A stretch of DNA of 52,190 nucleotides from a virus, in IMG/VR virus record IMGVR_UViG_3300037493_003077, positions 1 through 52,190 of that record, one strand, 5' to 3'. Positions 6,968 to 52,190 of this stretch are shown here, one piece after another. A model generated the notes under the pieces. It was not told where the DNA came from and did not search any database. It saw only the letters and a program-made list of their open reading frames with translations. The stretch's first letter is position 1; every line of letters starts with the position of its first letter. Made by a program: the position numbers and the translations under genes.

Positions 6968-6976
6968 ATTTTTCCT

Positions 6977-28398: not shown

Positions 28399-28408
28399 TG
28401 TATTTTCC

Positions 28409-29440: not shown

Positions 29441-29454
29441 GGTAGTTTAATTAT

Positions 29455-33113: not shown

Positions 33114-33116
33114 CTT

Positions 33117-33548: not shown

Positions 33549-33563
33549 ATAATTTCTCCGTTA

Positions 33564-33571
33564 TATTTATA
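33564..33571 (-). promoter_or_regulatory. T4-type late promoter (TATAAATA)
   Basis: A perfect octamer on the minus strand 16 nt before the baseplate-like gene and its GGAG ribosome site, in a 29-nt intergenic gap. Confidence 0.7.
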
Positions 33572-33577
33572 TAATAA

Positions 33578-35799: not shown

Positions 35800-35813
35800 C
35801 TATTATCCTTTAA

Positions 35814-35821
35814 TATTTATA
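35814..35821 (-). promoter_or_regulatory. T4-type late promoter (TATAAATA)
   Basis: A perfect octamer on the minus strand 15 nt before the 557-residue fibre gene, followed by an AAAGGA ribosome site. Confidence 0.75.
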
Positions 35822-35833
35822 GTTCATAACGAA

Positions 35834-38467
35834 TTACCAAGAGGAAATTGCTGCGCGTTTCCAAGTGTTTGTTCCAATGCAGACATAGATGTAGTTCGTG
35901 TCGTAAACAATGTCTCCCGTTGTACCTGTCGCACTAGCGGAGGTGGGAGTTAACTCGTAAAGTCTTTGACTACCTTGAGATGCAGCATTTAATGGTTGAA
36001 CCCATTGTGGAGAATCACCATCGTAGATATATACAAATTCAATTCCTGTGTTGGAATTCATCCACCTATCGCCAGTAGTTATACCAGAATTCGGAGCAGC
36101 AGATTGATAATAGAATATTGGTCCTTGGCCTGTAGCACCTGTGTTTCCAGTATTTCCTTGAACATATCCAATGGAGAATGATGCTCCACGAATACCAAAT
36201 CCATCTATAGGGGATATCCATAAGAATCCACCAGACAGTCCAGCGGCGGTATATCCATAACCAGTAGCACCTGTGTTTCCAGTGTTACCTGTATTTCCAG
36301 TATTGCCTGTATTACCAGTGTTTCCATTGTTGCCTGTATTTCCAGTATTTCCAGTATTACCAGTGTTTCCTTGAACATATCCTATAGAGAATGATGCTCC
36401 GCGAATACCAAATCCATCCACTGGAGATATCCAAAGAAATCCACCAGAAATACCAGCGGCAGTATATCCATAACCAGTAGCACCAGTAGTTCCAGTGTTT
36501 CCATTGTTACCTGTATTACCAGTATTTCCTTGAACATATCCTACACTAAAGGAAGCACCTTTAGTACCAAGATTATTTGTCGAACTAATCCAAAGGAATC
36601 CACCAGATATACCAATTGCAGTATATCCAGATCCTGTAGCACCTGCATTACCAGTATTACCTGTGTTACCAGTATTTCCTGTGTTTCCTGTGTTTCCAGT
36701 ATTGCCAGTATTGCCAGTATTGCCTGTGTTACCAGTGTTACCCTGAACATATCCAATGGAGAATGATGCTCCACGAATACCAAATCCATCTATAGGTGAT
36801 ATCCAAAGGAACCCACCAGAAATACCAGCGGCAGTATATCCATAACCAGTTGCTCCAGTAGCACCTGTGTTTCCATTGTTACCAGTGTTTCCAGTGTTAC
36901 CAGCATTTCCTGCATTACCAGTATTTCCTGTGTTTCCTGTGTTTCCCGTATTGCCAGTATTACCAGTGTTTCCCGTATTTCCTTGAACATATCCAATGGA
37001 GAATGATGCTCCACGAATACCAAATCCATCTATAGGTGATATCCAAAGGAACCCACCAGAAATACCAGCAGCAGTATATCCATAACCAGTAGCACCTGTG
37101 TTACCAGTGTTTCCATTGTTACCAGTATTTCCAGTATTACCAGTGTTTCCATTGTTGCCTGTATTTCCAGTATTACCAGTGTTTCCCGTATTGCCTGTAT
37201 TACCAGTGTTTCCAGTATTACCCGTAACAGTTCCTACACTAGAAGATATTGTAAATGTATTTCCAGTTTGCGTGATTGTTATAAACTCTCCAGCAGAAAT
37301 ACCAACTATACCCGTTTTTCCTGTAAATGAATTTACAATATTTGGTGCGTAAATATTACCAGTAAATGTAGCACCAGAAATTGGAACATTCACATTCATG
37401 ACTGTTGAATTGATATTTAAAAGGTTAGATCCAGTATTACTGACTCCGTTATAGATGGTAAAAAGTCCATCAGATTGATAAAGAAATGTATTAAATGTTG
37501 TCGTGGAATAATTACCCAATCTGATAGCACCAATTCGTGATTGACCTGTAGTGGAAACCTTTAATGCTCCAGTACTTGAATGTTGAACATATAATGGATC
37601 AACATTTGCTGTATTGTTTTGTATATAAACTGTAGCATTACTGAAAGAAATTCCAGATGTAGCACTAATACCAGAATTAAATACTTGAATAACACTAAAG
37701 GTATTTCCAAGATTTGTAAATGCCACATTTGTTATAGCACCTGTAGCACCATTGATTGATGTTACACCTTGAATGTCACCCGTTCTTCCATTGAATGTAG
37801 CGACATAATCTCCAACTGGACCTGTAGCACCAGTATTTCCTTGAATGCCTGGAGAACCATCAGTACCCGTATTACCAGTATTTCCTGTGTTACCTGTATT
37901 TCCTTGAATACCTGGAGAACCAGTATTTCCTGTATTACCTGTATTTCCTTGAATACCTGGAGAACCAGTATTTCCAGTGTTACCTTGAATACCTGGAGAA
38001 CCAGTATTTCCAGTGTTACCAGTTACACCTGCTGCACCTGCTGCACCTGCTGCACCTGCTGGGCCCACTGTTCCAGCATTTAATGGTTGAACCCATTGTG
38101 GAGAGTCACCATCGTAGATATATACAAATTCAATTCCTGTGTCAGAATCCATCCACCTGTCGCCAGTAGTTATACCAGAAGTTGGACCAGCAGATTGATA
38201 ATAGAATATTGTTCCTTGACCAGCAGTACCAGTAGTGGCAATTGTTATAATTCCACCAGTACCACTTAGAGTGATACCAGACCCCGCTGAGAGCGTGACC
38301 CCACCAATGAATCCGTTTATGGATATTACATAAGGACCACTAATACCACCAGAACCCCCTGTGCTAGTTCCTAGATCTAGTCTATCCCACGCGATGCCAT
38401 TATATGACCACACACGACTATTAACGCCGTGTGTGGTTCCTGAAATTGGATTTATTGGAAATGCCAT
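35834..38467 (-). CDS. Collagen-like tail fibre (877 aa)
   Basis: Begins [20 protein letters not shown], a relative of the PLDFP attachment motif. [24 protein letters not shown] module occurs near residue 105 and again near the C-terminus with few changes (shown in part). Between lie Gly-Ser-Pro/Gly-Asn-Thr collagen-like repeats, a module shared with the 299-residue protein ([26 protein letters not shown]), and five copies of the 32-residue GYTA..GGFLWIS..GYV module, each separated by 8-10 GNT/GNN triplets. The C-terminal 40 residues ([20 protein letters not shown]) form a small cap. A late promoter lies 16 nt upstream. It is the first gene of the fibre locus in transcription order. Confidence 0.9.
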
Positions 38468-38495: not shown

Positions 38496-39710
38496 TTATT
38501 TGACTTTTTGTTTCTTTCGTTCCTTAAATTTTTGGGATTTAATTTCAGGAACTGGTTGTGTTTTTTGTATGTGTGCTTCGTATTGTTTTCGTTGTTGATC
38601 TATTTGTTCAAGAATTGTTTTATATTGATTATAATTTTGTTGAACTCTATCAATTTCACCCTTTGGTAGTCTATTTTCTTCCAATAGTTTCTTACATGCA
38701 AGAAATCCGAGTTCTGGTCTACCAGCAGCGAATGCTGTTGCTCCCAGTTCATCTAATGCCACAAAGTTATAAATGGCATCAGGAACAAATAGAATCTCAC
38801 CTTGAGGTAGTGGCATTTCTGCTGCCATTCGTGCAAATACAAATGCGGCAGCTGGTTGATTATACTTTTGACGAAGAACCTGAGAAATATGAACTAATGG
38901 TTCAGAACGAATTGGACGGTAATTATATGCATCAAGGAATGATGCTTGAATCTCAGGCCACGGTCTATCCATCATTGCGCGACATACAGCAACCCGATAA
39001 AGTGCGTAATAAACTTCCTCTGCCCATCCACCCATTTCAGCACGCTTCTTATACGCTGCCTCAGACTTTTCCCATTGCTGAGAATCAAAATACGATTGTG
39101 CAAGATAGAATTGATACCTAGTGTTGGTTGGTTCATCCACCATTGCAATTTCAAGCATATCGGCATCTCTCTTGTATTTTTCTACTGGAGTAATTCCAAC
39201 ATTTCTTGCACCAAGAGTTCGTGCATTCAGATTATACTTACCTTCAATCTTTGTAAGCATTGGTTGTTCTTTAGCACATGCTGGATATTCGTGAAGAACA
39301 CCTTTGTATTCCCACTTGGCATCCATTCGGAAAATTTGAGTTCTCCACCAAGAGAAATCTTCGCGACCCATGCGAATCACATATCCATCTGCGGTCATTT
39401 CTGGTGGAAATTTAAAATCACCTTCTATGCAGTCATCCGCATCAATCATCCAGATATAATCACACTTACCATCACAATGGCGAAGTGCCTGAGTTCTATT
39501 GTGACCAAAGTTCTTCCACTCATCTTGATGAATCTCACCAGGAATTCCTTTTTCTGCAAAGAAATTCTTAATGATATCCTGAGTCCCATCGGTGGATCCA
39601 GTATCGGAAACAATCCAGTAATCAATGTACTTGTAAATAGAATTCAAACACTCATGAATAATATGAGATTCATTCTTAACGATCATAGATAGTGCAATTT
39701 TTGGTTTCAT
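38496..39710 (-). CDS. Family 2-like glycosyltransferase with TPR-like C-terminus
   Basis: A 404-residue protein. The N-terminal 220 residues are a GT-A fold: ALSMIVKNES (residues 6-15), VSDTGSTDGT near residue 34, and the metal/nucleotide-sugar motif MIDADD near residue 90. The remainder (about 200-370) is helical with repeated patterns (YQFYLAQSYFDSQQWEKSEAAY) like tetratricopeptide repeats, and the C-terminus is Lys/Gln-rich. Similar two-part enzymes modify proteins or surface glycans. It transfers a sugar from a nucleotide donor to an unknown acceptor. It is the last gene of the sugar cluster, just before the fibre locus. Confidence 0.88.
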   Translation of the reverse strand: MKPKIALSMIVKNESHIIHECLNSIYKYIDYWIVSDTGSTDGTQDIIKNFFAEKGIPGEIHQDEWKNFGHNRTQALRHCDGKCDYIWMIDADDCIEGDFKFPPEMTADGYVIRMGREDFSWWRTQIFRMDAKWEYKGVLHEYPACAKEQPMLTKIEGKYNLNARTLGARNVGITPVEKYKRDADMLEIAMVDEPTNTRYQFYLAQSYFDSQQWEKSEAAYKKRAEMGGWAEEVYYALYRVAVCRAMMDRPWPEIQASFLDAYNYRPIRSEPLVHISQVLRQKYNQPAAAFVFARMAAEMPLPQGEILFVPDAIYNFVALDELGATAFAAGRPELGFLACKKLLEENRLPKGEIDRVQQNYNQYKTILEQIDQQRKQYEAHIQKTQPVPEIKSQKFKERKKQKVK

Positions 39711-39725: not shown

Positions 39726-42299
39726 TTAGATATTATAATTGGAACTTTCCAACTCTTTGATATTTATAAAGACTACATCTTTGTTTATAAGATCTTGATT
39801 ATTTGCCTTGATATATTCAAAGAAATTCCATGCTAGAACAACAACTGCCTTTGGAATATTATTAAGAAAATAATCTTTACTTCGGATTGGAATATTTACG
39901 CATGGAATGAACTTTCCTTTTTTGAGCAGATTATCGTCTACCGTATAATCCAATTTATTTGAATTAATTCCATAATAATTTAAGGATGTAGTTGCTTTTG
40001 CTGGAGCTCCATATCCACAGATAACATCATATTTTTCCTTCAATTTGGAAAAATTTGACAGGACATTTTGTTTGACTTCTCGCACACGAATACCAAAATT
40101 GGTATAGGTGTGAAGGTTAGTAAGTCCAAAAATAAGTTCATCTTGTAAGAATTGATTGACACTGGCATCAATATTATTTCCGAGATTCTTCACATAAACT
40201 CGGATTGACCCACCATGTGTATTGATGTGTTCTATTTTCACTACAGACAAGTTTAGATTATTGAAGAAATTATTAATGGATGTAACACTCCAATAATTCG
40301 TATGCTCATGATAAATGTTATCAAAAGTCATATCCTTTATGGTGTCAAGTAAATACTGAACTTCAACGATAAAAGTTCCATCTGTTTCCAAAATCTCAAA
40401 TGCTCCATTTGCTATTTCGGCAAGATTATCCGAGTGAGCAAAAACATTTGATGCTGTTACCAACTTTGCCTTGCCATAATTTTTGACAATTTTCTTTGCA
40501 GTCTTCATGTCAAAGTAGTTGTTTATGGTCTTGATCTTATTCTTGTTAGCAAGTTTAGCAATATTCTTTGCTGGTTCAACACCAACAACATTGACACCTT
40601 TATCCATAAGTGGTTTCAAAGCAATACCATCATTGCTTCCAATATCAACAACTAAAGTGGTAGAGTCCAATCCAAGTTCATTGATATATTTGTCAGCAAC
40701 ATCTTCAAAGTGCTTTCTAAAAATAGCAGCAGTAGATGAAACATAAAGATAATTATCAAACATCTTCCCTGGCGGAACAACTACAGAAAGTTGACAATTA
40801 TGACACTTGGGGCAATAATTCATCTCAAGTGGATATGTTTCAGACTTAGCATCAACAGAATCTGTAAGATTATTTGCGAGTGGTGAAGCACCAAGAGAAA
40901 CAACGCGCTCAAGATGCTTGTTATTGCAACATCTACAGGTTGTCTTGTAAGTAGAGAGTAGTTTATCTCGCATCTCATCATCTACCAACTTATACGGAAT
41001 AGTATGAGTGACACCATAATTTTCATGCTCGCGCTCTCCACAAACCAAATTCAAGAAAACAGAGTCTTCCGTGAATACCATTGTGTGTGCTACATTTGGT
41101 TTGATGATTGCAATATCACCTTCATTGATGACTCGGGTTTCAATTTGAGCATTTGCAACTGAAAGATCCTTAATGACACTAATATATTGACCCTTAACCA
41201 ATAGACATTTTTGTTCTTGAATTGGGTGATAATGATTGGCACGAACAGTACCCTTCTTAGATTCAATATATCCAATAAGATTAATTGGTTCAGTTAGTTC
41301 GTAATTGTTGATTCTTCCACGGGAATCTACAAATTCCTTTCCACCACGATCAATGTATTCAAGAGCAGGATTAATATTCTTGACAGACCAATTCGTAATC
41401 ATTTCCTTCAAACACTCTTTAATATTATAACAGAATTGGAATCCTGTACTAAGAAGTTTAGTATTAGAAATGGTATAACCAAGATTTGGAATTTCATCTT
41501 GTGTTTCAATAAGTGTCAATTTTGGATTGATTTCCTTACACATTTCAGCAACTTGTTTGACTGTCATGTTTTCTTTGGCAAGATGAAAAATTTCTCGTTG
41601 AATATCATTCTTCTCTGCCATGAACTTCATGCAACGAGCAACATCAAACAGTGGAACAAGACTCTTAAGTTGCACCCCACCTGAGAACAATTTAATTGTT
41701 CCGTTCTGAGATGCAATCTTTGAGAATAGATTTGGCATAATCCCCATACGCATGGTATCAGTTGAATATCCATACACTGATCCAAGACGAAGAATAACAT
41801 AATTTAGATCTGATGCATATAGATCAATTTCAGATTGAACTTTTCCAACAGAATAGGTAAGAACAGCACACGGTGGTTCTGTTTCCAAAATATCAGTTTT
41901 AGTTTCAGCAAATCCTTCATAAACAACATGGGTTGATGGAAAAATAATCTTGCAATCTTTTCGGACATACTTGATTATATTGCGTGTGCCTTCAATTCCT
42001 GTAACACGAATTTCATTATCTTGTACTTCGTTTGATCCAGTCTTAGTGTATGCAACATCAGTAACTCCAGCGAGATGAATGACAATGTCTGCATCACCGA
42101 GTATTTCTGAAATTACTTTTTCGTCTAAAATAGATGCTTGAACGAAATTGATTCCCCAATCCCTGAGTTGTTTGACTCGCTCAGAAACAAATCGCGAATC
42201 AACGACTGTTATATTATTAAACCTTGCTTCTCCAGAATATAATTTGCAAAGTTCTGATCCAATATAACCAAGACCACCAGTAATCACTATTTTTTTCAT
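39726..42299 (-). CDS. Three-part fusion: NAD epimerase/dehydratase, cupin, sugar C-methyltransferase
   Basis: An 857-residue fusion. Residues about 1-290 are a short-chain NAD(P) sugar epimerase or dehydratase: GGLGYIGSEL at the N-terminus and catalytic YSVGK near residue 148. Residues about 310-430 are a cupin (GTVRANHYHPIQEQKCLL, shown in part, with metal His residues), like the cupin of CapF-type or FdtA/WxcM-type sugar enzymes. Residues about 445-857 are a zinc-containing sugar C-methyltransferase: CRCCNN...YCPKCHNCQ zinc site, VVDIGSNDGIAL SAM motif near residue 535, and a C-terminal GYGAPAKATT region typical of the family. One polypeptide would thus carry out several steps from a nucleotide-4-keto sugar to a methyl-branched sugar. 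The ATG at 42299 is preferred over a TTG at 42314. Confidence 0.88.
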   Translation of the reverse strand: MKKIVITGGLGYIGSELCKLYSGEARFNNITVVDSRFVSERVKQLRDWGINFVQASILDEKVISEILGDADIVIHLAGVTDVAYTKTGSNEVQDNEIRVTGIEGTRNIIKYVRKDCKIIFPSTHVVYEGFAETKTDILETEPPCAVLTYSVGKVQSEIDLYASDLNYVILRLGSVYGYSTDTMRMGIMPNLFSKIASQNGTIKLFSGGVQLKSLVPLFDVARCMKFMAEKNDIQREIFHLAKENMTVKQVAEMCKEINPKLTLIETQDEIPNLGYTISNTKLLSTGFQFCYNIKECLKEMITNWSVKNINPALEYIDRGGKEFVDSRGRINNYELTEPINLIGYIESKKGTVRANHYHPIQEQKCLLVKGQYISVIKDLSVANAQIETRVINEGDIAIIKPNVAHTMVFTEDSVFLNLVCGEREHENYGVTHTIPYKLVDDEMRDKLLSTYKTTCRCCNNKHLERVVSLGASPLANNLTDSVDAKSETYPLEMNYCPKCHNCQLSVVVPPGKMFDNYLYVSSTAAIFRKHFEDVADKYINELGLDSTTLVVDIGSNDGIALKPLMDKGVNVVGVEPAKNIAKLANKNKIKTINNYFDMKTAKKIVKNYGKAKLVTASNVFAHSDNLAEIANGAFEILETDGTFIVEVQYLLDTIKDMTFDNIYHEHTNYWSVTSINNFFNNLNLSVVKIEHINTHGGSIRVYVKNLGNNIDASVNQFLQDELIFGLTNLHTYTNFGIRVREVKQNVLSNFSKLKEKYDVICGYGAPAKATTSLNYYGINSNKLDYTVDDNLLKKGKFIPCVNIPIRSKDYFLNNIPKAVVVLAWNFFEYIKANNQDLINKDVVFINIKELESSNYNI
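39761..39768 (-). promoter_or_regulatory. Possible T4-type late promoter inside the fusion gene 3' end
   Basis: A perfect TATAAATA on the minus strand about 50 nt before the glycosyltransferase start at 39710. It is within coding sequence, so chance is possible. Confidence 0.35.
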
Positions 42300-42344: not shown

Positions 42345-43073
42345 TTATATATTTGTCCAATCTACGCCAGTAGGCAGAAGTGTTGTATGTCCAGAATAAC
42401 TTGGAATTGGACTATATAATTCTCGTCCCGTTCCTATTATTTCATTAAACATATCAAAATCTCTACCTCTTTCAGTTCCGAAAGGTTCTGTCCATTTCCT
42501 TAATATTTCAAAATCCTCACGGAGAACCTTTGTAGTACATGCAAATGTGAAGCAGGTTGTCGGCACAGTTCTCCACCAACCAGATTGTAAATAATGAATT
42601 TTGCTTTTTATATTCATATTATCTTGAAGATCGCAATAATTTCTATATGTTCGTGTGTTTGTATCCCAATGAAATGGGTAATACTTATCAGGATGATCAT
42701 AAAGAGTAACATATTGATCTTTAGCAAAAGATGAGAAAATCTCAATCAATGCTTCCTTTGATCCTTTTCTATGTAGATAGTCGCTCTCCACAAAATAATT
42801 GATAACATCATCATCATTGTTATATGCTATTTGCCAAACTTTAAAGAATCCTATAGAATTACCATCATTGGTAATTTTATAATTAAATTTATGTTTATTA
42901 CAAATCTCAATAACTTCAGATACTGTAGCATCTGATGAATTATCAATAAAAACGGTACACTCATCAGAGATTGGATTGAAGTTTTTTATAAAATTTTCAA
43001 AACAAATCTTCCATGTATATCCCCACCCCATTCTCGCCTTATCACATAATCTATAATAGCATTTGATTTTCAT
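42345..43073 (-). CDS. Glycosyltransferase-like protein (GT-A fold)
   Basis: A 242-residue protein with a GT-A-type N-terminal half: FENFIKNFNPISDECTVFID, then NSSDATVSEVIEICNKH and NDGNSIGF near residue 70, like the first sugar-binding loop of family 2 enzymes. VESDYLH near residue 93 is the acidic metal-binding loop. The C-terminal region is rich in Trp and Tyr, including GWWRTVPTTCFTFACTT. It is likely cytoplasmic and transfers an unknown sugar. It is tightly clustered with nucleotide-sugar enzymes and ends 4 nt after the small 54-residue gene. Confidence 0.75.
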   Translation of the reverse strand: MKIKCYYRLCDKARMGWGYTWKICFENFIKNFNPISDECTVFIDNSSDATVSEVIEICNKHKFNYKITNDGNSIGFFKVWQIAYNNDDDVINYFVESDYLHRKGSKEALIEIFSSFAKDQYVTLYDHPDKYYPFHWDTNTRTYRNYCDLQDNMNIKSKIHYLQSGWWRTVPTTCFTFACTTKVLREDFEILRKWTEPFGTERGRDFDMFNEIIGTGRELYSPIPSYSGHTTLLPTGVDWTNI

Positions 43074-43077: not shown

Positions 43078-43242
43078 TTACCATCCTATAAATTTATCTT
43101 TTGTTTCCAATTTAAATTTTACATTTAAATTCAAATTGTATTTTTTAATTAAGTTTTTATTGTTGAAAGTTTTTGAATAAGTCGGAATAGACATAAATGG
43201 TACATTATTGTCATATGCAATAAGAAAGTACAGTTTACGCAT
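43078..43242 (-). CDS. Small 54-residue protein, unknown
   Basis: A short ORF, MRKLYFLIAYDNNVPFMSIP, then Lys/Asn-rich sequence ending in KFIGW. It overlaps the stop of the GDP-mannose epimerase-like gene by 8 nt and precedes the glycosyltransferase by 4 nt, so it fills a gap that is otherwise tightly packed. Composition is like its neighbours. No motif is recognised, and it may be a truncated remnant of a larger sugar gene. Confidence 0.55.
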   Translation of the reverse strand: MRKLYFLIAYDNNVPFMSIPTYSKTFNNKNLIKKYNLNLNVKFKLETKDKFIGW

Positions 43243-44242
43243 AAAATCTATCTCTCATATCCAAATCTGCTGTTGACATCACTGTGTTTAGTTTTGTTTG
43301 CTTCAATATCCATGCATATGTCTTTTCCATACCAGAGCGAAGTGATTGACTAGGAACCCAACCAATTTTACTCTTATAGAGTTTATTATCTGAGTTTCTT
43401 CCACGAACACCAACTGGACCAGAGATGTTATTAATAAGTAGATTCTTTCCTGCAATCTCTATTGCCATTCTAGCAAGATCATTGATTTTAATCATCTCTT
43501 CTGATCCAATATTAACGGGACCAATGAACTCAGAATTCATTAATCTACAGGTAGCTTCAACACATTCATCGATATACAAAAAGGAACGAGTCTGTTGACC
43601 ATCTCCCCATACTTCAATATATGAATCAGATGATTCTGCTACCTTTCTACACATGGCAGCAGGTGCTTTCTCCTTGCCACCTTTCCAAGTCCCCTCTGGT
43701 CCGAATATATTGTGATATCGAGCAATACGAACATCTAGACCGTGGTTTCGGTTGAAGGCGAGGTAGAGTCTTTCGCTAAAGAGTTTCTCCCATCCATATT
43801 CACTGTCTGGTGCAGCAGGGTACGCAGAGTCTTCAGAGCACTTTGGATTATCTGGATCTTCTTGGTTGTAGGCAGGGTACATACACGCAGAAGATGAGTA
43901 GAACACCTTACCAACCTTTGTGTTATGACAACGCTCTACTACATTAAGATTGATGAGAGCAGAGTTATGCATGATGTCTGCATCATGTTCACCCGTGAAG
44001 ATGTATCCCGCTCCACCCATGTCAGCCGCCATTTGATATACCTCATCAAATTGGAGGTCGAATGCGTTATCGCACACAACTTGGTTTCGTAGATCTCCAA
44101 TGATAAAATCATCTGCTGGAGACTTTGAGAATTCTGGGTATTTTAGATCTACAACACGAACCCAATGACCATCTTTCTTGAATTTCTTTACAAGATGAGA
44201 ACCAATAAATCCACCCCCACCAAGTACTAAAATCTTTTTCAT
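43235..44242 (-). CDS. GDP-mannose 3,5-epimerase-like NAD(P) sugar epimerase
   Basis: A 335-residue extended short-chain dehydrogenase: GGGGFIGSHL at the N-terminus (NAD binding), MAADMGGAGYI near residue 72, SSSACMYP near residue 117, and catalytic Tyr-Lys in SEYGWEKLF near residue 147. ADMGG and SSACMYP are the pattern of GDP-D-mannose 3',5'-epimerase, which makes GDP-L-galactose or GDP-L-gulose. WGDGQQTRSFLYIDE near residue 212 is conserved in this group. It would supply L-galactose-type donors to the cluster, possibly to the GT10 enzyme at the right end. Start at 44242 overlaps the GT17-like gene stop by 4 nt. Confidence 0.88.
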   Translation of the reverse strand: MKKILVLGGGGFIGSHLVKKFKKDGHWVRVVDLKYPEFSKSPADDFIIGDLRNQVVCDNAFDLQFDEVYQMAADMGGAGYIFTGEHDADIMHNSALINLNVVERCHNTKVGKVFYSSSACMYPAYNQEDPDNPKCSEDSAYPAAPDSEYGWEKLFSERLYLAFNRNHGLDVRIARYHNIFGPEGTWKGGKEKAPAAMCRKVAESSDSYIEVWGDGQQTRSFLYIDECVEATCRLMNSEFIGPVNIGSEEMIKINDLARMAIEIAGKNLLINNISGPVGVRGRNSDNKLYKSKIGWVPSQSLRSGMEKTYAWILKQTKLNTVMSTADLDMRDRFYA

Positions 44243-45030
44243 CGTATATAATCCTTAAATTTTTCAATGTTCTGTTGTACATACACTGGTAGAGTATTTA
44301 TATGATCCACAACCAAGTTAATTCCTTCATTGGTTCTCCCAAGAACATCAGTTAAATTTTCTCTATACATTTTCAATGAATCAAGCGTGATGTAATCAAA
44401 TTCAGTATGAGCATAGTTATCTATTATGTTTTTCATGTTTTCCGCAGATCCAATGCACGAAAAATGCCATCCTCCATTTACTATGCTTGGATACTGACTA
44501 TTGGTTAAAGATGACTTAAACTGTTGAGTGCCAATTTTATCAATTGTGGATTTAGTTGCTATTCCAGCATGACTCCACCTAATCCCACATGCTCTAGTAT
44601 TTAAATACCAATAATAAAGATTTTGCGCAAATGTATAAGATCCTCCATCCCATTTTTCTTTTACTTCTTTAAGTTTTTGACATGAAATAATTTCATCCAC
44701 ATCTGCAATTATGATTAAATCATTTTCGGATGCATCTACAATTCCTTTTGTTATCATTCGTCTTTGTAATTGATCATTATCATGAGCCCAATGTTTGGTA
44801 GTATGCGGTTTATAGAATTGATCTGCGCCAATCACAACATGTATTATTTTATCAAGAAATGGTTTAAATCTATCTTTATTTTCTTTAAAGTATAAATTTT
44901 TTTCTTTGTACTGATGTGTTAATTCTGCTTCAACCAAAACAAAATAATCAACTTCAGAATTTAGTTCATTTAATCTAATTTCAAGAATATCTAATTCATT
45001 ATAAAATTGAAAACAATCATAAACTTTCAT
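44239..45030 (-). CDS. GT17-like glycosyltransferase
   Basis: A 263-residue protein matching the GT17 pattern (beta-1,4-N-acetylglucosaminyltransferase-like): VYDCFQFYNELDILEIRLNE at the N-terminus, DYFVLVEA near residue 28, IIADVDEI near residue 108 (acidic metal site), and GGWHFSCIG near residue 190. The family adds a sugar, usually GlcNAc, to mannose cores in eukaryotes; bacterial and viral members have unknown acceptors. Start at ATG 45030 with GGAA upstream is favoured over a TTG. It overlaps the previous gene by 14 nt. Confidence 0.88.
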   Translation of the reverse strand: MKVYDCFQFYNELDILEIRLNELNSEVDYFVLVEAELTHQYKEKNLYFKENKDRFKPFLDKIIHVVIGADQFYKPHTTKHWAHDNDQLQRRMITKGIVDASENDLIIIADVDEIISCQKLKEVKEKWDGGSYTFAQNLYYWYLNTRACGIRWSHAGIATKSTIDKIGTQQFKSSLTNSQYPSIVNGGWHFSCIGSAENMKNIIDNYAHTEFDYITLDSLKMYRENLTDVLGRTNEGINLVVDHINTLPVYVQQNIEKFKDYIR

Positions 45031-45715
45031 AATCGTTCCATCTTTCAATTATTTTCGAAACCATAGGGATAAATAATCCACTATGAAATCCAAATGTAGT
45101 TTCTAGTTCCTGTTCTGTTACTAGCATACTTCCAAGAGCAAATTTCTTTGCAAATTCTCCTGTTGGGAAAATACAACCCATCTGTTCAAAATAATTTCTA
45201 AGAGATACACATATAATAATATCTTCACCCATTCCAGAATTGGTCATCTTAGAAATAAATTCTTTATTTAGATTTGCTCCTGCCTGTAATAGTTTTTTAC
45301 TTCTCAAGCAAAATCCACCGCATCCCACTTCATGTTTAGGTTCAATTACCCACGGAAAGTGTCCTGGTTTCATATGTATCCATGGACACCCTATGTAATC
45401 GTAATTGAAAAATTCATCAGTCCAGTTTGTTGGTTTACAAATATAACCATCTGTTTGTACAATTAAACAATAATCAGTATTTACATAAGAATTCAAGTCA
45501 GTGATACAAAAAGTATTATATTCTGGATATGACATGTTTTCAATATTATGAATTATAATTTTATCATTAGATTTTATGTTTTTATCTGATGTAATTAAAA
45601 TTACAGACCCAAACTGTATTTTGCGAGTACATATATCAATAACATCAAGAATTTTTTCAGTATCTTTGCCAGTACCATCTATTGTTACCAAAGTTATTTT
45701 TGATAATTCAATCAT
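45017..45715 (-). CDS. DUF5672-family putative glycosyltransferase
   Basis: A 232-residue protein with the DUF5672 pattern: KITLVTIDGTG at the N-terminus, YCLIVQTDGYI near residue 83, FFNYDYIGCPW near residue 103, VGCGGFCLRSKKLL near residue 130 and MGEDIIICVSLRN near residue 163. This family is GT-A-like and found in glycan clusters, but activity is not established. It has a paralogue in the window at 48511-49212 with the same order of motifs. The ATG has no strong ribosome site and overlaps the preceding methyltransferase by 4 nt. Confidence 0.8.
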   Translation of the reverse strand: MIELSKITLVTIDGTGKDTEKILDVIDICTRKIQFGSVILITSDKNIKSNDKIIIHNIENMSYPEYNTFCITDLNSYVNTDYCLIVQTDGYICKPTNWTDEFFNYDYIGCPWIHMKPGHFPWVIEPKHEVGCGGFCLRSKKLLQAGANLNKEFISKMTNSGMGEDIIICVSLRNYFEQMGCIFPTGEFAKKFALGSMLVTEQELETTFGFHSGLFIPMVSKIIERWNDYESL

Positions 45716-46323
45716 CCATTATCTCTTTTCAAAACAGTAAGACCATTACAGTTTGTAAAAATTTCATGAATTTTCCATTGCGGATTTTCAATAATAAATT
45801 TTTCAATAGCAGTCCATATTCCATCACCCTCAAGGATGGGGGATCCAGTAGCCTCTCCTGGCTCATTTGTGAATCGGTAATTCACTGTGTCATGAAATAT
45901 TAAATACTTTCTTGCTTTATTGCCATGCAATTTTAATTCTGTTGTAATTTGATTATGCGTGTGTAAAGTGTCAATAAAAAGTAAATCGGTTTCTTCTATT
46001 TCTATCTTGGTGGTATCTCCTAGAATAAATTGATAATCAATATTATTTAAAGAACAATAATCTATTATGCCATTCATTCTATCTCCGCATTGATGACTGT
46101 CCCAGTGCAATGATTCTTGTGTAAGATTGCGCGGATCAACTATATCAATTGATATAAATTTCTTAGGTTTAGCGACAGCAAATGCAAAAGTTGATACAAC
46201 CCAACGGACTCCCAGTTCTATCACATGGTCGCATTCACTTGCATACCGTTTTAGTGTTGGTAGATGTTCATTTATGTCTGATGGCGAATTGCATAACGCA
46301 CTATAACATTGTTCAACATTCAT
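45712..46323 (-). CDS. Class I SAM methyltransferase (sugar-cluster type)
   Basis: A 203-residue protein. VIELGVRWVVSTFAFA near residue 35 is the SAM-binding region, although Gly-rich motif I is atypical (ELGVRWVV rather than ELGxxxG). FISIDIVDP near residue 56 is the acidic loop and DLLFIDTLHTHNQI near residue 114 the metal-binding Asp/His pattern of O-methyltransferases related to cephalosporin hydroxylase and methyltransferase 24. FHDTVNYR near residue 144 is also typical. Acceptor unknown; a sugar hydroxyl is likely from the context. It starts 1 nt after the TylF-like gene. Confidence 0.78.
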   Translation of the reverse strand: MNVEQCYSALCNSPSDINEHLPTLKRYASECDHVIELGVRWVVSTFAFAVAKPKKFISIDIVDPRNLTQESLHWDSHQCGDRMNGIIDYCSLNNIDYQFILGDTTKIEIEETDLLFIDTLHTHNQITTELKLHGNKARKYLIFHDTVNYRFTNEPGEATGSPILEGDGIWTAIEKFIIENPQWKIHEIFTNCNGLTVLKRDNG

Positions 46324-46324
46324 A

Positions 46325-46990
46325 TTAAATTTCCTTTATTAAGAAGCACCCGCATGGGAGTTTGCCTAGATCTGCTTCAAACACATTTAATTTTTTATTT
46401 GTTATTGGTTCATATAAATGTGTATGCCCTTTTTCTTTAAAGAAATGCCGTATAGCGGCATGAGCCTCTTGCAAGCATGAATCATCAAATATAATATATC
46501 CACCAATAGAGACTTTATCATACAATCCATACAATACATCGAGTGTTGCACTAAATGCATCAACATCAATTCTTAATAATGAAATTTGTTTAATTCTGCA
46601 TGTTTCTAAGTTTAATGTGTCTTTAACAAATCCTTTTAAAAACTGAATTCTAGGTTCATCCAAAGCATCAAACATTTTAAAATTATGTCTTACTGTTTCT
46701 AAATCTATTGCATAGCTACCCGCACCGTGCCTCTCCCTTTCATAATAATATGTACTTGTTTGTCTATCTTCTATTCCCTCATATGAGTCGCATACCCATA
46801 TATTCTTATCATGAAAAATCTTGCTCAAAAATATGCTCATACCCCCAAGCCATACTCCACATTCAACAACATCACCATCTATTTTTTCTATATGTTCTTT
46901 GTGTTCTATAATCATATCAAATCTTTCCTCACTAACCATCGTAATTTGATTGTTGATTATCATATTTTTTAAAGTAACTATTTCTTTCAT
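46325..46990 (-). CDS. TylF/MycF-family sugar O-methyltransferase
   Basis: A 221-residue protein of the macrocin O-methyltransferase family. DGDVVECGVWLGGMSIFL near residue 38 is motif I, VCDSYEGI near residue 66 the acidic loop, and LLRIDVDAFSATLDVL near residue 138 and IIFDDSCLQEAHAAI near residue 163 carry the metal-binding Asp residues. The family methylates deoxysugar hydroxyl groups, normally with Mg2+. The ATG at 46990 is preferred over an upstream reading to 47044 because GGAG lies 6 nt before it, inside the last codons of the previous gene. Confidence 0.88.
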   Translation of the reverse strand: MKEIVTLKNMIINNQITMVSEERFDMIIEHKEHIEKIDGDVVECGVWLGGMSIFLSKIFHDKNIWVCDSYEGIEDRQTSTYYYERERHGAGSYAIDLETVRHNFKMFDALDEPRIQFLKGFVKDTLNLETCRIKQISLLRIDVDAFSATLDVLYGLYDKVSIGGYIIFDDSCLQEAHAAIRHFFKEKGHTHLYEPITNKKLNVFEADLGKLPCGCFLIKEI

Positions 46991-46991
46991 T

Positions 46992-47516
46992 TTATTCTCC
47001 AATAATTGCCCAACTATAATCAGAAAAAACTTTAATTTTTTCAATATTAAATAAACTATTTACTGCTTGACTTACTTCAAATAATGTTGGACTATCTGGT
47101 ATATAATCATGTCCAGACATTATTCCAGTTTTTTTTAATTTTGGAAGACTAACATTTATATCATGTACTACAGAATGAAAAGAATGATCTGCGTCAATAT
47201 AAATAAAATCATAATAATCATCAATTAAATTTGGAACTATTTGAGAAATACTTCCTTGTTTAAAATTAATGTTTTTATGAAAATTTAAAATATTTTTCAT
47301 TTTTTCTGTTAAAATTATATCAACAGTATCAACAACATCAGCATAGTATGCAAATAAAGATGTGCTAACTCCATCATTACAACCTAATTCTAGAACTTTA
47401 TGATTTTTGTTCATTTTAAAAAATAAACAAAGTTCATCTAATCCTTCTATATAATTAACTCCACCAGCATCTCCCATTCCATGCATTCTTTCTTGTTTTA
47501 AATTTGGTTTATTCAT
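46992..47516 (-). CDS. Class I SAM O-methyltransferase
   Basis: A 174-residue protein. KVLELGCNDGVSTSLFA near residue 39 is motif I, VDTVDII near residue 63 the acidic loop, and FIYIDADHSFHSV near residue 107, followed by SGHDY near residue 133, the Asp/His set of methyltransferase 24-type O-methyltransferases. The substrate is probably a sugar. The ATG at 47516 is favoured over the upstream TTG, which lies inside the ribosome site. It is one of three neighbouring genes that share the same ribosome-site sequence. Confidence 0.82.
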   Translation of the reverse strand: MNKPNLKQERMHGMGDAGGVNYIEGLDELCLFFKMNKNHKVLELGCNDGVSTSLFAYYADVVDTVDIILTEKMKNILNFHKNINFKQGSISQIVPNLIDDYYDFIYIDADHSFHSVVHDINVSLPKLKKTGIMSGHDYIPDSPTLFEVSQAVNSLFNIEKIKVFSDYSWAIIGE

Positions 47517-47518
47517 TT

Positions 47519-48514
47519 TTATTTTATTCTCCAATAATTGTATATACCAATGTCAAGTTCGTATTTAGTCCACAATTTTCTCTCTCGCATTGGTTGGGTC
47601 TTTGCCCATTCCCACATAGAGGTGAGTCCATCTTTTAAAGATGTGACTTGTTTGTATCCAAGAACATCTTTGATCTTATCATGAGTTACCCACGCATCCT
47701 TAACTTCGTGGCGTTGTTCAAGATGAACTTTGTCGCCACATCCTATCACATCTATTAATAGATTGCAAACATTATTTATAGTAATATGATCATCTCCCCC
47801 AATATTAAATATCTGTTTTGATGCTCTATCGTCTGTAGCACCCATCCAAAAATAAGGAACACAATCATCTACATAACTGAACGCTCTCGTTTGTTCCCCA
47901 TCACCATAAATGGTCATTGGTAGTTTATTTAGATGTAAATACATCCAAATTCCTAGAACATTTCTATACTTATCCCAGATGTTTTGCTTTACACCATATA
48001 CATTGTGGGGTCTAAATATACACCAATCAAGCCCATGTTGTTCTCCTGCAACATGAAGATCCATCTCACATGCATACTTTGCAATACCATATGGGTCTAT
48101 TGGTGCTTGCTGGTGTGATTCCTTGAACGGAACTTCACCATTACCATAAACTGCCATGGTTGATGTAAATACAAATCTTTTGATGTTGTATTTGATACTA
48201 AGATTAATTAACTTTGTAGTTGCAATGAGATTGTTTTCGTAGTTATACTGCCTAATGAAAGGACTCAACCCTTCAGCAGCATATGCGGCAAAATGAAAGA
48301 CATAATCAAATTTATGTTCCTTGAAAAGATATTCAAGTCTTTTGCTATTGCTTGTAAGATCGTAATTATAAAAAACAACTTTGGGATTTACATTTTGAAT
48401 GTATCCCCCTGAGAGATTATCAACACCATACACTGTTGCCTTATCGTTATCAATCAACCAATCAGCAAGACGAGAACCCAAAAGACCAGCAACACCAGTA
48501 ATTAAAACTTTCAT
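47519..48514 (-). CDS. NAD-dependent nucleotide-sugar epimerase (GalE-like)
   Basis: A 331-residue extended short-chain dehydrogenase: ITGVAGLLGSRLADWL at the N-terminus binds NAD, FTSTMAVYGNGE near residue 116, catalytic YGIAKYACE near residue 143, and FRPHNVYG near residue 168. The C-terminal part has YGDGEQTRAFSYVDDCV. It probably interconverts UDP- or GDP-sugars (for example UDP-glucose/UDP-galactose), but the exact substrate cannot be read. The start overlaps the upstream stop as ATGA, with GGAGAATAT before the ATG. Confidence 0.88.
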   Translation of the reverse strand: MKVLITGVAGLLGSRLADWLIDNDKATVYGVDNLSGGYIQNVNPKVVFYNYDLTSNSKRLEYLFKEHKFDYVFHFAAYAAEGLSPFIRQYNYENNLIATTKLINLSIKYNIKRFVFTSTMAVYGNGEVPFKESHQQAPIDPYGIAKYACEMDLHVAGEQHGLDWCIFRPHNVYGVKQNIWDKYRNVLGIWMYLHLNKLPMTIYGDGEQTRAFSYVDDCVPYFWMGATDDRASKQIFNIGGDDHITINNVCNLLIDVIGCGDKVHLEQRHEVKDAWVTHDKIKDVLGYKQVTSLKDGLTSMWEWAKTQPMRERKLWTKYELDIGIYNYWRIK

Positions 48515-49212
48515 ATATTCTCCAATAATTTTACTTTGTTTGGATGAGTTTCGTCACAATGAAACCCAAAACTATCGTCCGATGATAACATAAGATCATC
48601 TACTAATGTACTTTCACATGAAAAGTTTGCTGCTGTTATTGTGTCAGGGAACTTACATCCAAAAGTCTCTAACTGTTTTCTCATGCAAATAGAAATTACT
48701 ACATCTTCTGGAATATTTTCATACTCTTTATTATACATGTTTTTAACTACATTGAGTAGTTTTTTTGATCTCATACTAAACCCACCATTTCCTACTGTAT
48801 ATTTACACATAGACTCTTTCAATCTTTGATGTGCTAAAGACCATCTTTGAGTATTAATGTATAGCATATTAGAAGACCAAGGTGCTCCAATATAATCATA
48901 ATTAAAAAACTTAAAAGACCAATGATTTTTATTGACAATAAATCCATCATTTTGGACGATGATTATATACTCTGTATCAATGTAATCTACAATATTATTA
49001 AGTGTGAAGTATTGACATTCATCCCAAGACATTTTATCAATTTTTATAGTCTTTCCGATGGTAATATCATGATTAGAACATGAGAATACTTTTATATCAC
49101 CAAAAGTTATATCCTTGCTAGAATATTTCAAAGCCTTTATCAGGCGTGTATCGTCGCCGACACCATCAATCCCAACTAATGTAACATTTGATAGGTTAAG
49201 AATATTTGGCAT
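48511..49212 (-). CDS. DUF5672-family putative glycosyltransferase, paralogue
   Basis: A 233-residue relative of the protein at 45017-45715, with the same motif order: NVTLVGIDGVGDD, YIIIVQNDGFIV near residue 82, FFNYDYIGAPW near residue 102, VGNGGFSMRSKKLL near residue 139, and IPEDVVISICMRK near residue 167. This shows a duplicated transferase in the cluster. The two copies are far apart in sequence, so duplication is old or they were acquired separately. Acceptor unknown. It overlaps the DUF6165-like gene by 17 nt. Confidence 0.8.
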   Translation of the reverse strand: MPNILNLSNVTLVGIDGVGDDTRLIKALKYSSKDITFGDIKVFSCSNHDITIGKTIKIDKMSWDECQYFTLNNIVDYIDTEYIIIVQNDGFIVNKNHWSFKFFNYDYIGAPWSSNMLYINTQRWSLAHQRLKESMCKYTVGNGGFSMRSKKLLNVVKNMYNKEYENIPEDVVISICMRKQLETFGCKFPDTITAANFSCESTLVDDLMLSSDDSFGFHCDETHPNKVKLLENI

Positions 49213-49576
49213 ATGACTTCTCTTCCATAATATCTGAATTGCTCAATTTATTAATTTTATTCTTAATATCAAATCTCATATCGTTTACGACATAAACTGA
49301 ACGAGCGAGTTTGATGAACTCATCATCAAACTCTAATTTAGATTCTTTGGTTCTGATTTCGTCCTCTACAACCCACAATTTTTCATTTATTGATTTTAGA
49401 TTGGATATTTCATCAGAAAATATAGTGAAATAATTCTTTGCGAACAAACAATTGGATATTACTTCCAACTCTTTGTGAATATTTTCCAACTTGGAACTAT
49501 CACTTATTCTTTCGTGTTTTATACACAATATAGTGTATTTGTCAATAACTTCACCCACAGATACATCAATCATCAT
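49196..49576 (-). CDS. DUF6165-like small protein of the sugar cluster
   Basis: A 126-residue helical protein with SVGEVIDKYTILCIKHERI near the N-terminus, which fits the DUF6165 pattern of proteins found beside glycosyltransferases. Function unknown. The remainder is Lys/Glu-rich helices. The ATG at 49576 overlaps the previous gene's stop as ATGA. An in-frame TTG at 49591 is rejected. Confidence 0.75.
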   Translation of the reverse strand: MMIDVSVGEVIDKYTILCIKHERISDSSKLENIHKELEVISNCLFAKNYFTIFSDEISNLKSINEKLWVVEDEIRTKESKLEFDDEFIKLARSVYVVNDMRFDIKNKINKLSNSDIMEEKSYAKYS

Positions 49577-50313
49577 ACTATATAATTCCAATCTTTTTTA
49601 TAAATGTGATCTACATAGGAAAAATCTGGATTCTGCAATCTGCCATTCACCTTTCGTGAATACATGTTCAGTTTTCCTTTAGTATTTAGGTTTTCAACGA
49701 GATAGCAAAGTGAAGTTTCAACTGTATGGATCTCCAGAGCATTTTCTATAACCCAGCACAGATCAAATACATTGAATAACTTAATGTGTTCTGGTTTATG
49801 ATATACACATTTTATATTTGAATTTGTAATATTTACTTCCCTGTATACCATATCAGGTGGAGAAGCAAACATATTATTCACAAAAATAAATGGTTCGTTC
49901 TTTATACCAAGGATTTCCTTACAACGAATCTCTCGTTCTTGATTTCGTTCAAATTGCAAATAATCTTTCCAATTATTTTCATTGACATCAAATCCCATGA
50001 ATTGCATCAACAGATACTTGCCCTTCATCGGTAGCACACCAAATCTATGATGTGAAATATCAAATGGAATATATACAAATTCTTCTGTATTGATTGCAAT
50101 TGGTGTCTTATAACATTCCTTACGAGGAAAATTTTCATTTACATTTACAAAATTGATTCCCTTGATGTAATCTTTGATGTATAGGAATTCTGGAATCACA
50201 GGCCATATAACTTCATATCCTAAAGATATGAAATGTCTTGCTGCCTTCTGTAAGAAGAATATATCACCAATTCCTGCTGGTTGCCAAAATAAAACTTGTT
50301 TATTCACTTGCAT
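49573..50313 (-). CDS. GT9/heptosyltransferase-like GT-B glycosyltransferase
   Basis: A 246-residue protein beginning VLFWQPAGIGDIFFLQKAAR, the Gly-rich nucleotide/acceptor loop typical of heptosyltransferase-like enzymes, followed by HFISLGYEVIWPV. The C-terminal half has HTVETSLCYLVENL near residue 197, resembling the conserved donor-binding loop of GT-B enzymes. It is shorter than typical GT9 (about 320-350 residues), so it may have a reduced C-terminal domain. The acceptor is unknown. It overlaps the next gene by 4 nt and starts 14 nt inside the upstream gene's end. Confidence 0.7.
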   Translation of the reverse strand: MQVNKQVLFWQPAGIGDIFFLQKAARHFISLGYEVIWPVIPEFLYIKDYIKGINFVNVNENFPRKECYKTPIAINTEEFVYIPFDISHHRFGVLPMKGKYLLMQFMGFDVNENNWKDYLQFERNQEREIRCKEILGIKNEPFIFVNNMFASPPDMVYREVNITNSNIKCVYHKPEHIKLFNVFDLCWVIENALEIHTVETSLCYLVENLNTKGKLNMYSRKVNGRLQNPDFSYVDHIYKKDWNYIV

Positions 50314-50968
50314 TACCTACTAAGTTAAATTTCACGACCTCTTCTCGAAGACCCATTTCTCTCAGTGAATTTTCTTTGGATTTTCCATCAGCAATCCCCA
50401 TTGTTATCATTGGCGTGAATCCTTCTGGCAATGATGTTCCAGGCCATATGGCATATGGATGTCCAAGCATACCAATTCGCATCTTGGGTAAAAATTCAGG
50501 AAGAACTTCACTCATCAGAACTTCATGATCAAATAATTTCACACCCAAATTCATTTCATTGAATTCGCATCGTTCAACCCAGTAAGTCAAACACTGTATG
50601 GTATTTTCTGTATAATTTATATAAATTGGTGATGCTTTGGGTAAATTGGGATTCACATCTGGAGGATTGCCTTGATATGCAAATGCCATATCGCAGTTGT
50701 CTTTCAGTGTATCAAATATAGAAAGTTCAGCATGAATCAAAGAATCCACATCCATCCACACAAATGGTCGTTTCTTTTCTTCTAACACAGAAAGAATAAA
50801 TCTTGGTTTAGCAAGACAATTTAAACGGTATTCGCCACGCGAAGGTAATTCGCGAATATCATGTGGAATATTATTCTCATTGCAATTGATTCTCAGACGA
50901 CGCGCGTGATCGCTATAGTATGTACGATCATCTATATCACAATAAAAGGATACAATTTCAGTTTTCAT
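50300..50968 (-). CDS. Nucleotide-diphospho-sugar transferase-like protein
   Basis: A 222-residue GT-A-like protein. CLAKPRFILSVLEEKKRPFV leads to WMDVDSLIH near residue 71, in which DVD is the metal-binding motif. FNEMNLGVKLFDHEV near residue 136 and GMLGHPYAIWPG near residue 165 are typical of plant-type and bacterial nucleotide-diphospho-sugar transferases. The donor and acceptor cannot be read. It overlaps the GT10-like gene by 11 nt. Confidence 0.78.
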   Translation of the reverse strand: MKTEIVSFYCDIDDRTYYSDHARRLRINCNENNIPHDIRELPSRGEYRLNCLAKPRFILSVLEEKKRPFVWMDVDSLIHAELSIFDTLKDNCDMAFAYQGNPPDVNPNLPKASPIYINYTENTIQCLTYWVERCEFNEMNLGVKLFDHEVLMSEVLPEFLPKMRIGMLGHPYAIWPGTSLPEGFTPMITMGIADGKSKENSLREMGLREEVVKFNLVGNASE

Positions 50969-51797
50969 TGATTAGTTTAAATAATTGATCATCAGCAGAA
51001 ACAAGTTCTTTAACCCGATTAAAGTTGTCTCTTACTGCGTCAAGTTTACTTTCATATAGTTCTTTTGTCAATGTTTTTGGATCAAAATCTGGAGTTAATT
51101 CTATAATTCCATCTTTGTTGAAGATATCACCAATATCTGGTGCTCCCCAATATACTGGTATTGTTCCCGTAGCAAAACAATCAGTTATTTTCTCTGTATA
51201 ATATGTACTGTACTTATCATTTTCAACAGTAATAGAAAACATATAATCATTCAGTCCTTCAGACTTATCACCCCACGGAACACCTGGACTTAATCTACGA
51301 GATCCAAGAACTCCACCATACAGATCAAGGTTATTTTTATATTGTTCTGCTAATTGATGACGAATAGCATGTCCAAATGCAAATTTCTTGGGAGAAGCAA
51401 TCATAGATGCTAATTTTGTTTTTGGAAAAATATCTTGGTTCTTTATCCATGGAAGATTACTTCCTGCTGGACAGTATCTTACCTTTGGATGTTTTCCCAA
51501 CCAACTCTTCTCAGAAGTAAAAAGAAGATCATATGAATCACAAATATTTAAAAATTGCTCTTCCCAAACTTCTCTTGGAAAGTTCATTGCATGAAAAATA
51601 GCACGGGATTCACAAACCCATGCTATTTTCATTGTTCCAGGTTTCTTCTGATAAGACATTCCGATGGCAATTCCACCATCTATAAAAACTTTTACAGGAA
51701 AGTCTTCAGCGATCCAACTGAATGATTGTGGCAATAAATTAGAATTTGATGAATATTCTATTTGAAATGGAGCACCAATTGCTTGCATTTTTTTCAT
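50958..51797 (-). CDS. GT10-like fucosyltransferase
   Basis: A 279-residue protein with the GT10 (alpha-1,3/4-fucosyltransferase) signature in its C-terminal half: FSITVENDKYSTYYTEKITD and CFATGTIPVYWGAPDIGDIF near residues 185-225. The N-terminal half is the acceptor domain. The family uses GDP-L-fucose; a GDP-L-galactose donor is conceivable given the GDP-mannose epimerase-like gene nearby. No membrane anchor, unlike eukaryotic members. The ATG at 51797 has GTGGAGA 11 nt upstream and is preferred over an in-frame GTG at 51815. It is the first sugar gene after regA. Confidence 0.88.
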   Translation of the reverse strand: MKKMQAIGAPFQIEYSSNSNLLPQSFSWIAEDFPVKVFIDGGIAIGMSYQKKPGTMKIAWVCESRAIFHAMNFPREVWEEQFLNICDSYDLLFTSEKSWLGKHPKVRYCPAGSNLPWIKNQDIFPKTKLASMIASPKKFAFGHAIRHQLAEQYKNNLDLYGGVLGSRRLSPGVPWGDKSEGLNDYMFSITVENDKYSTYYTEKITDCFATGTIPVYWGAPDIGDIFNKDGIIELTPDFDPKTLTKELYESKLDAVRDNFNRVKELVSADDQLFKLINEN

Positions 51798-51824
51798 AAT
51801 ATAAAATCTCCACACTTATATATG

Positions 51825-52190
51825 TCACTTACCAATATGGTATTTGGGAATCAAAGTCCATTCTTTCTTTTCTTTATGTGGAATGATCTTCAATCTAGCA
51901 AGAGAAAGTTGTGGTTGCTCATACTGTTTTGGATCTATCACATCCACCAATTCCCATTCTACCAGCAATTTAACTATTGTATTTCTTCGCCCAAGATCGT
52001 CTTCTGATATATCAGAGTCAAGACCATCAAGAACAAACATTTCTTTAAAATGTATGATAGCATATCTACCTCGCTTGTGTAGTATATGACACGATTGATA
52101 TAATTTCTTTTCAGTTTTAGAAGACACACCGATTCTAGTGAGAGTTTCTTTAACTTTAAGGAAATCTTCTTCACTTTTCAATGTTATCTC
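51825..52190 (-). CDS. regA: RegA translational repressor (partial, 5' end outside window)
   Basis: Residues visible: EITLKSEEDFLKVKETLTRI at the start of the window-edge fragment, then LYQSCHILHKRGRYAIIHFKEMFVLDG (shown in part), with an acidic central region and WTLIPKYHIG at the C-terminus. This is the pattern of T4 RegA, an RNA-binding protein that blocks ribosome access to early mRNAs. The reading frame is open to the last base, so only a few N-terminal residues are missing. In T4, regA lies just before gene 43, but here a 13-kb sugar cluster and the fibre locus follow it. Confidence 0.93.
   Translation of the reverse strand, partial: EITLKSEEDFLKVKETLTRIGVSSKTEKKLYQSCHILHKRGRYAIIHFKEMFVLDGLDSDISEDDLGRRNTIVKLLVEWELVDVIDPKQYEQPQLSLARLKIIPHKEKKEWTLIPKYHIGK

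Follow-up and report, generated by a model that had tools for sequence, protein, structure and literature searches.

The fused gene and its domains

The window analysed here, all 52,190 nucleotides of the virus record IMGVR_UViG_3300037493_003077, contains a gene whose product joins an extended short-chain dehydrogenase/reductase (SDR), a cupin and a C-methyltransferase (CMT) in one chain (Table 1). The fusion is encoded by a single unbroken open reading frame (ORF) on the minus strand, from the ATG at 42299 to the stop codon at 39726; an in-frame TTG located 15 bases upstream of the ATG would give an alternative length of 862 residues. The three-domain content and order claimed in a preliminary description of this DNA were borne out by a domain search with each third of the 857-residue protein (by Pfam for the SDR and CMT, by fold for the cupin), and a search for the same fusion detected it in phages and in SAR11 cells. 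The protein families themselves are known, while their combination in the order SDR-cupin-CMT is a new architecture. Literature searches, as judged from the search results, revealed no paper on such a fusion, on its occurrence in SAR11 or on the old branch in viruses.

The N-terminal part matched the Pfam family Epimerase (PF01370) at residues 4-237 (E 1.3e-25, 90.6 bits, cut-off 20.9). The best match in a profile search of solved structures was Cj1427 (6vo6, 6vo8), the GDP-manno-heptose C4-dehydrogenase of Campylobacter jejuni, with E 2.6e-28 (runner-up 2.5e-17), and the SDR model superimposed on this protein with Z 35.4 over 295 residues at 2.1 Å, followed by GalE (Z 33.0). The earlier label of epimerase/dehydratase holds as far as the SDR assignment is concerned; the nearest solved relative is a C4-dehydrogenase. 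The two proteins share the fold, the NAD-type D34 and the YxxxK motif, but they are 24% identical and Cj1427 is a single-domain protein. It is described in PMC10680097 as an NAD-dependent enzyme with tightly bound NADH, which oxidises C4 of GDP-manno-heptose with alpha-ketoglutarate as acceptor; according to the same source, a C3/C5-epimerase and then a C4-reductase act afterwards, both of which are separate proteins.

The listed fold matches of the AlphaFold2 model of the whole protein (mean pLDDT 89.4, pTM 0.75, built from 68 sequences) were all SDR or CMT chains, and the cupin was therefore modelled as a separate domain. It gave a confident cupin barrel (mean pLDDT 85.3), whose fold neighbours were 3,4-ketoisomerases, 3,5-epimerases, GDP-heptose epimerases and NovW. 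The model matched HCAN_0198 with Z 12.8 over 117 residues and CapF with Z 11.0 over 98 residues, the latter level with other sugar cupins. By predicted fold, the domain is at least as close to the 3,4-ketoisomerases of the FdtA/QdtA type and the epimerases of the RmlC type as to CapF. The Pfam search with the whole protein detected no cupin match at E<=0.01; when the domain was searched alone, Cupin_2 (E 0.0014) and PF14667 (E 0.0011) were found, both under their curated cut-offs. Neither PF00908 (the RmlC family) nor the FdtA family appeared at E<=10 when three fusion cupins were searched, with HMMER filters that drop weak matches.

A resemblance to CapF (Cap5F), a capsule sugar enzyme of Staphylococcus aureus, had been proposed for the first two domains. 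The order of N-terminal SDR and C-terminal cupin is indeed identical, but CapF has no methyltransferase, and the similarity of its C-terminal domain to the cupin was marginal by sequence (E 0.14-0.6) and not the nearest by fold. The barrel with its His-x-His motif is shared with FdtA/QdtA, RmlC/NovW and FdtD, the last of which likewise has a cupin joined to another sugar enzyme. Unlike FdtA/QdtA and RmlC/NovW, the middle domain of the fusion reached no curated family cut-off in the sequence search.

The C-terminal part matched Methyltransf_13 (residues 455-514, E 5.8e-15, 55.7 bits, cut-off 31.3), Methyltransf_23 (residues 532-688, E 8.8e-15, 55.2 bits, cut-off 27) and Methyltransf_14 (residues 694-845, E 1.8e-39, 135.5 bits, cut-off 23.5). 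Its matches among sequences of the Protein Data Bank (PDB) were MtmC (4rv9, E 7e-68) and KijD1 and TcaB9 (both E ~1e-51), and the same three proteins were found by fold (KijD1 Z 50.3, TcaB9 ~50, MtmC 49.0). These enzymes methylate C3 of 4-keto sugars. The likeness covers the whole domain, including the zinc cysteines, which form a complete Cys4 site in the window protein, and five active-site residues: Y517, H622, Y663, E665 and H666 correspond by alignment to Y76, H181, Y222, E224 and H225, which were mutated in TcaB9 structures (sequence index equal to the PDB number plus 2). MtmC, TcaB9 and KijD1 are stand-alone proteins of antibiotic pathways, whereas the CMT described here follows an SDR and a cupin in the same chain. 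One such CMT, that of the mithramycin producer, has been reported to act as a 4-ketoreductase as well (PMC3539893). The same source describes a virenose pathway for Coxiella burnetii, in which a TylCIII homologue C3-methylates an NDP-4-keto-6-deoxyhexose (NDP, nucleoside diphosphate) for lipopolysaccharide; that pathway, however, is presented there as an in silico proposal and uses separate genes (PMC3539893).

Conservation and selection

An alignment of 69 fusions (30 viral and 39 cellular) was used to follow the active sites. The glycine motif, D34, S122, T123, Y149 and K153 of the SDR were invariant in all 69, as were H356, H358 and H405 of the cupin, while E362 was replaced by Q in two. 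The SAM motif of the CMT (SAM, S-adenosylmethionine), H622 and the YHEH at 663-666 were also invariant, and so were Y517 and the other four TcaB9-equivalent residues. Loss of catalytic residues from any domain, one way in which the preliminary description could have failed, was thus ruled out, all three sites being intact in the window protein. The zinc cysteines were incomplete in 7/69 fusions, all viral (L039, L040, L041, L045, L046, L054 and L057); these lost part of the Cys4 site and kept the catalytic residues.

The closest relative, L001, is 87% identical and likewise 857 amino acids long. Comparison with it gave dN/dS of 0.071/0.81 for the SDR, 0.022/0.70 for the cupin and 0.097/0.79 for the CMT, and all three domains are under strong purifying selection. 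The fusion is true and conserved, and is probably functional.

Distribution in viruses

A scan of IMG/VR with an alignment of 11 fusion copies detected 67 contigs, including all 14 from a first scan. The complete fusion was present as a single ORF in 39 of these, while the others included 11 cut at a contig end, two with a frameshift-like split (L048, L065) and 10 with the CMT only. In four contigs (L068, L070, L071, L081) an SDR-cupin gene was followed by a separate CMT gene, and in one (L089) a separate SDR gene accompanied a cupin-CMT gene. Two of the CMT-only contigs are identical with L013 and L014, in which a distant SDR gene (26% identical in L013) stood directly before the CMT gene; L014 also had a gene of the RmlC family (PF00908, E 1e-37) three genes past the CMT. 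The recurrence of these domains as two-gene splits (L070, L068, L071, L081, L089) and as separate adjacent genes suggests that they form one functional module.

The downstream CMTs of L068, L071 and L081 were just 24-26% identical. In these three contigs, two further diverged CMT genes flank the two-domain SDR-cupin gene, and such phages may therefore make more than one branched sugar. A four-domain version with an additional C-terminal FkbM-type methyltransferase was found in L059 (positions 3947-7363, an open frame of 1139 residues). A copy of the fusion with 67% identity was also found in the 642,428-base record of an uncultured phage, LR756502. In this 642-kb phage (L016) an SDR fused to a family-2 glycosyltransferase is encoded at 7312-8727, near the triple fusion.

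Distribution in SAR11

The fusion is also widespread among SAR11 bacteria, a point absent from the preliminary description, and the idea of a phage-only oddity was rejected on this ground. When 29 SDR-cupin stretches from viruses were used to scan the genome contigs of GTDB, 148 relatives were found, of which the best 80 were taken. Seventy-nine of these 80 were titled SAR11 (Pelagibacteraceae, Pelagibacterales or Ca. Pelagibacter) and one was an unspecified proteobacterial metagenome-assembled genome. The full fusion was found in 71 of them (in two of these a contig edge removes the N-terminal residues), and of the rest seven were end-cut and two had an apparent frameshift split. By sampling level, 23/98 genomes of the family sample and 48/297 of the order sample had the full fusion; in the phylum sample of 398 Pseudomonadota genomes it was confined to the centre genome, and the 397 others were without it. 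In two other Pseudomonadota of this sample (L205 and L206), the cupin and the CMT were encoded by two genes next to each other, alongside an SDR gene of decarboxylase-like type; this SDR was matched to UDP-glucuronate decarboxylase in L205 and judged by eye in L206. The cupin of L205 was homologous to the fused cupin (hhalign probability 98.8).

In a tree of 106 fusions (quick method, SH-aLRT), the 35 viral and 71 cellular rows were split by one branch with support 100, and the best viral-cellular pair was 60.2% identical. These results suggest an old exchange between SAR11 and phages, with no repeat seen.

Neighbouring genes

The genes around the fusion form a glycan island in the same orientation and encode glycosyltransferases of families 2, 10 and 17, O-methyltransferases, an epimerase and another SDR (Table 1). 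Homologues of the family-2 glycosyltransferase (cluster C3) were also downstream of the fusion in L001, L002, L003, L005 and L007. The homologue of GDP-mannose 3',5'-epimerase would point to GDP-linked sugars in the island. The preliminary description had assigned the fusion a role in supplying a methyl-branched NDP-sugar to neighbouring transferases, and this is supported at the sequence level by the domains, the intact sites and the glycosyltransferase and O-methyltransferase neighbours.

Table 1. Features of the fused gene and of the glycan island in the window
Feature	Position	Strand	Remarks
Triple-domain protein SDR-cupin-CMT	39726..42299	-	857 aa; ATG 42299, stop 39726-39728
Extended SDR, residues 1-308	41376..42299	-	G8xxG11xxG14, D34, S122/T123, Y149xxxK153; nearest solved structure Cj1427
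Cupin, residues 309-446	40962..41375	-	H356-x-H358-x3-E362 and H405
CMT, residues 452-857	39729..40946	-	zinc C455, C458, C496, C499; SAM motif 552-558
Family-2 glycosyltransferase	38496..39710	-	directly downstream of the fusion
242-aa ORF without family assignment	42345..43073	-	directly upstream of the fusion; homologue cluster C8 in 4 loci
GDP-mannose 3',5'-epimerase homologue, plant-type	43235..44242	-	2c59, E 2.8e-92
Family-17 glycosyltransferase (PF04724)	44239..45048	-	neighbour in common with SAR11 loci
Rest of the glycan island	45017..52190	-	two DUF5672, CmcI-like and TylF-like O-methyltransferases, Methyltransf_24, SDR, DUF6165, GT10; three ORFs without Pfam match or outside the scan

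In SAR11 the fusion usually follows tig, clpP, clpX and lon and stands ahead of the nuo genes. A family-17 glycosyltransferase was the immediate neighbour in 59 of the best 80 cellular loci, and in the family sample 14 of the 23 genomes with the fusion had the transferase gene in divergent orientation ~50-75 bases away (counted by hand). Within this sample the transferase was present in 20/23 fusion genomes and 37/75 others (Fisher p 0.0014, relatedness ignored). Among viral records, a family-17 gene was within the fetched flanks of 15 of 69 distinct ones (18 of 83 loci with duplicates), and it directly preceded the fusion in L016, L036, L042, L063, L065, L069 and L072.

Collagen-like fibre genes lie beside the island (26957-38467, minus strand), with long Gly-Asn-Thr repeats of up to 83 triplets. 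Thr often occupies the third position of the triplet and could serve as a site of glycosylation. Decoration of such fibres was rejected as a general rule, long Gly-X-Y runs near the fusion being found in just 7/92 records with duplicates counted (the window, L002/L026 and L003/L007/L027/L033).

The record as a whole encodes a T4-type DNA polymerase, a DnaB-like helicase and collagen-like tail-fibre proteins. The helicase was closest by bits to that of Pelagibacter phage HTVC008M, closely followed by those of Methylophilales and Synechococcus T4-like phages, and the DNA polymerase was closest to those of cyanophages. A 383-residue polymerase ORF at 13544-14695 (minus strand) matched positions 491-852 of the 856 in its PHROG profile, possibly indicating a split polymerase. 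An ORF of 1139 residues (1502-4921, minus strand) had no match in Pfam or in the phage collection, and a defence library search gave only a weak match, to a methyltransferase region.

Proposed reaction and alternatives

On balance, the protein is likely to be an enzyme with three active sites that makes a C-methyl-branched nucleotide sugar by way of an NDP-4-keto sugar. The SDR would carry out NAD(H)-dependent redox chemistry at C4, most likely forming the 4-ketone of an NDP-sugar by oxidation, in the manner of Cj1427, and/or reducing the ketone at the end. The 4-ketone would make the adjoining carbons more acidic, and the His-x-His site of the cupin would shift protons at C3, at C5 or at both, resulting in epimerisation or keto-isomerisation. 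The CMT would then methylate the enolate carbon, which is most likely C3, with SAM as donor. The product would pass to a dedicated glycosyltransferase, often of family 17, and end in a cell-surface glycan in SAR11 and in a virion or host-surface glycan in phages. We infer the 4-keto substrate, the C3 position, the order of steps and the NAD(H) cofactor, unlike the domain content, sites, conservation, distribution and synteny, which were observed.

The source of the 4-ketone was considered from the dehydratases of the family sample. RmlB was above its cut-off in 14/23 fusion genomes and in 34/75 others (Fisher p 0.24, relatedness ignored). As no association between RmlB and the fusion was seen in SAR11, dTDP-4-keto-6-deoxyglucose is not favoured as substrate, and an obligatory role for it was set aside. 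A GMD-like match at E<=1e-50 was found in 15/23 fusion genomes, and a 4,6-dehydratase of either the RmlB or the GMD-like type in 19/23. Neither was detected in G121, G031, G045 and G123: G121 had no SDR of the GDP_Man_Dehyd type at E<=1e-20 and G031 just one, with an epimerase-like motif, while G045 and G123 retain SDRs that could be dehydratases. Because the genomes were filtered at 90% completeness, these gaps are merely suggestive. Together with the match to Cj1427 they favour, without proving it, formation of the ketone by the SDR domain itself.

Several observations weigh against the proposed route. An outside source of 4-keto sugar is possible in most fusion genomes, given the 19/23 with an RmlB or GMD-like enzyme, and in the unfused operon of L205 the SDR is UDP-glucuronate-decarboxylase-like and not Cj1427-like. 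The cupin sequence reaches no curated family cut-off, and three of the 23 fusion genomes were without a detected family-17 transferase. Moreover, the identity of the sugar, of its nucleotide and of the carbon that is methylated does not follow from similarity in sequence and fold.

The alternative that survives best, which we regard as possible though the less likely, is that RmlB or GMD supplies a 4-keto-6-deoxy sugar, the cupin epimerises it, the CMT methylates it and the SDR acts last as a 4-ketoreductase. The pathways of noviose (NovW/NovU/NovS) and mycarose use the same three reaction types, and NovW was among the fold matches of the cupin. A GMD-like SDR (PF16363, E 1.3e-143) directly follows the fusion in L002, and the RmlC-family gene of L014 as well as the high count of dehydratases in fusion genomes are also in its favour. 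Against it are the lack of association between RmlB and the fusion, the two genomes without a recognisable 4,6-dehydratase (G121 and G031, though either may be incomplete) and the SDR's nearest solved relative, an NAD-dependent dehydrogenase and not an NADPH reductase.

A more specific and less probable form of the proposed route is a self-contained and redox-neutral C-methylase. Here an NAD tightly bound to the SDR would oxidise C4 of an ordinary NDP-hexose or NDP-heptose, and the same NADH would reduce it again after the cupin and CMT had acted. If true, a common NDP-sugar would become methyl-branched with only SAM consumed, requiring neither a 4,6-dehydratase nor an NADPH reductase. This would be a streamlined solution in SAR11, common to large and T4-like phages.

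It is unlikely that the fusion serves co-expression or folding only, with no channelling and at least one domain acting on unrelated sugars. Every partition of the domains into separate genes was also found, and the predicted interdomain confidence was moderate (pTM 0.75), as such a role would allow; yet the domain order is identical in two deeply separated lineages, and purifying selection and intact sites extend to all domains. Still less probable is a cupin acting as 3,4-ketoisomerase, which would place methylation of a 3-keto sugar at C2 or C4 instead of C3. The top fold matches of the cupin were 3,4-ketoisomerases, the FdtD fusion among them, but RmlC-type and GDP-heptose epimerases were within ~2 Z units, the FdtA family gave no sequence match for the three fusion cupins searched, and the nearest relatives of the CMT are C3-methyltransferases.

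A frameshift, a misassembly or a chance juxtaposition of three adjoining genes, the artefact that would have undone the preliminary description, was refuted and has a negligible chance of being right: no support for it was found, frameshift-like splits being limited to a few relatives (L014, L048, L065, L145, L153), while the fusion is intact in 40 other viral records, 71 cellular loci and 48 of the 297 order-level genomes, and is under purifying selection in the comparison with L001.

Implications

Most known C-methyl-branched sugars come from antibiotics, with a few surface polysaccharides as further sources. In the fusion, C4 oxidation, proton shuffling and C-methylation, possibly with channelling, are predicted to be united in one soluble protein. 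From the usual position of the SAR11 fusion, at one locus and next to one glycosyltransferase, a specific methyl-branched surface sugar is predicted, which some of the most abundant cells of the ocean would bear. The viral sister lineage, including the 642-kb phage, suggests that phages may make the same or a similar sugar, either for the virion coat or to change the host surface.

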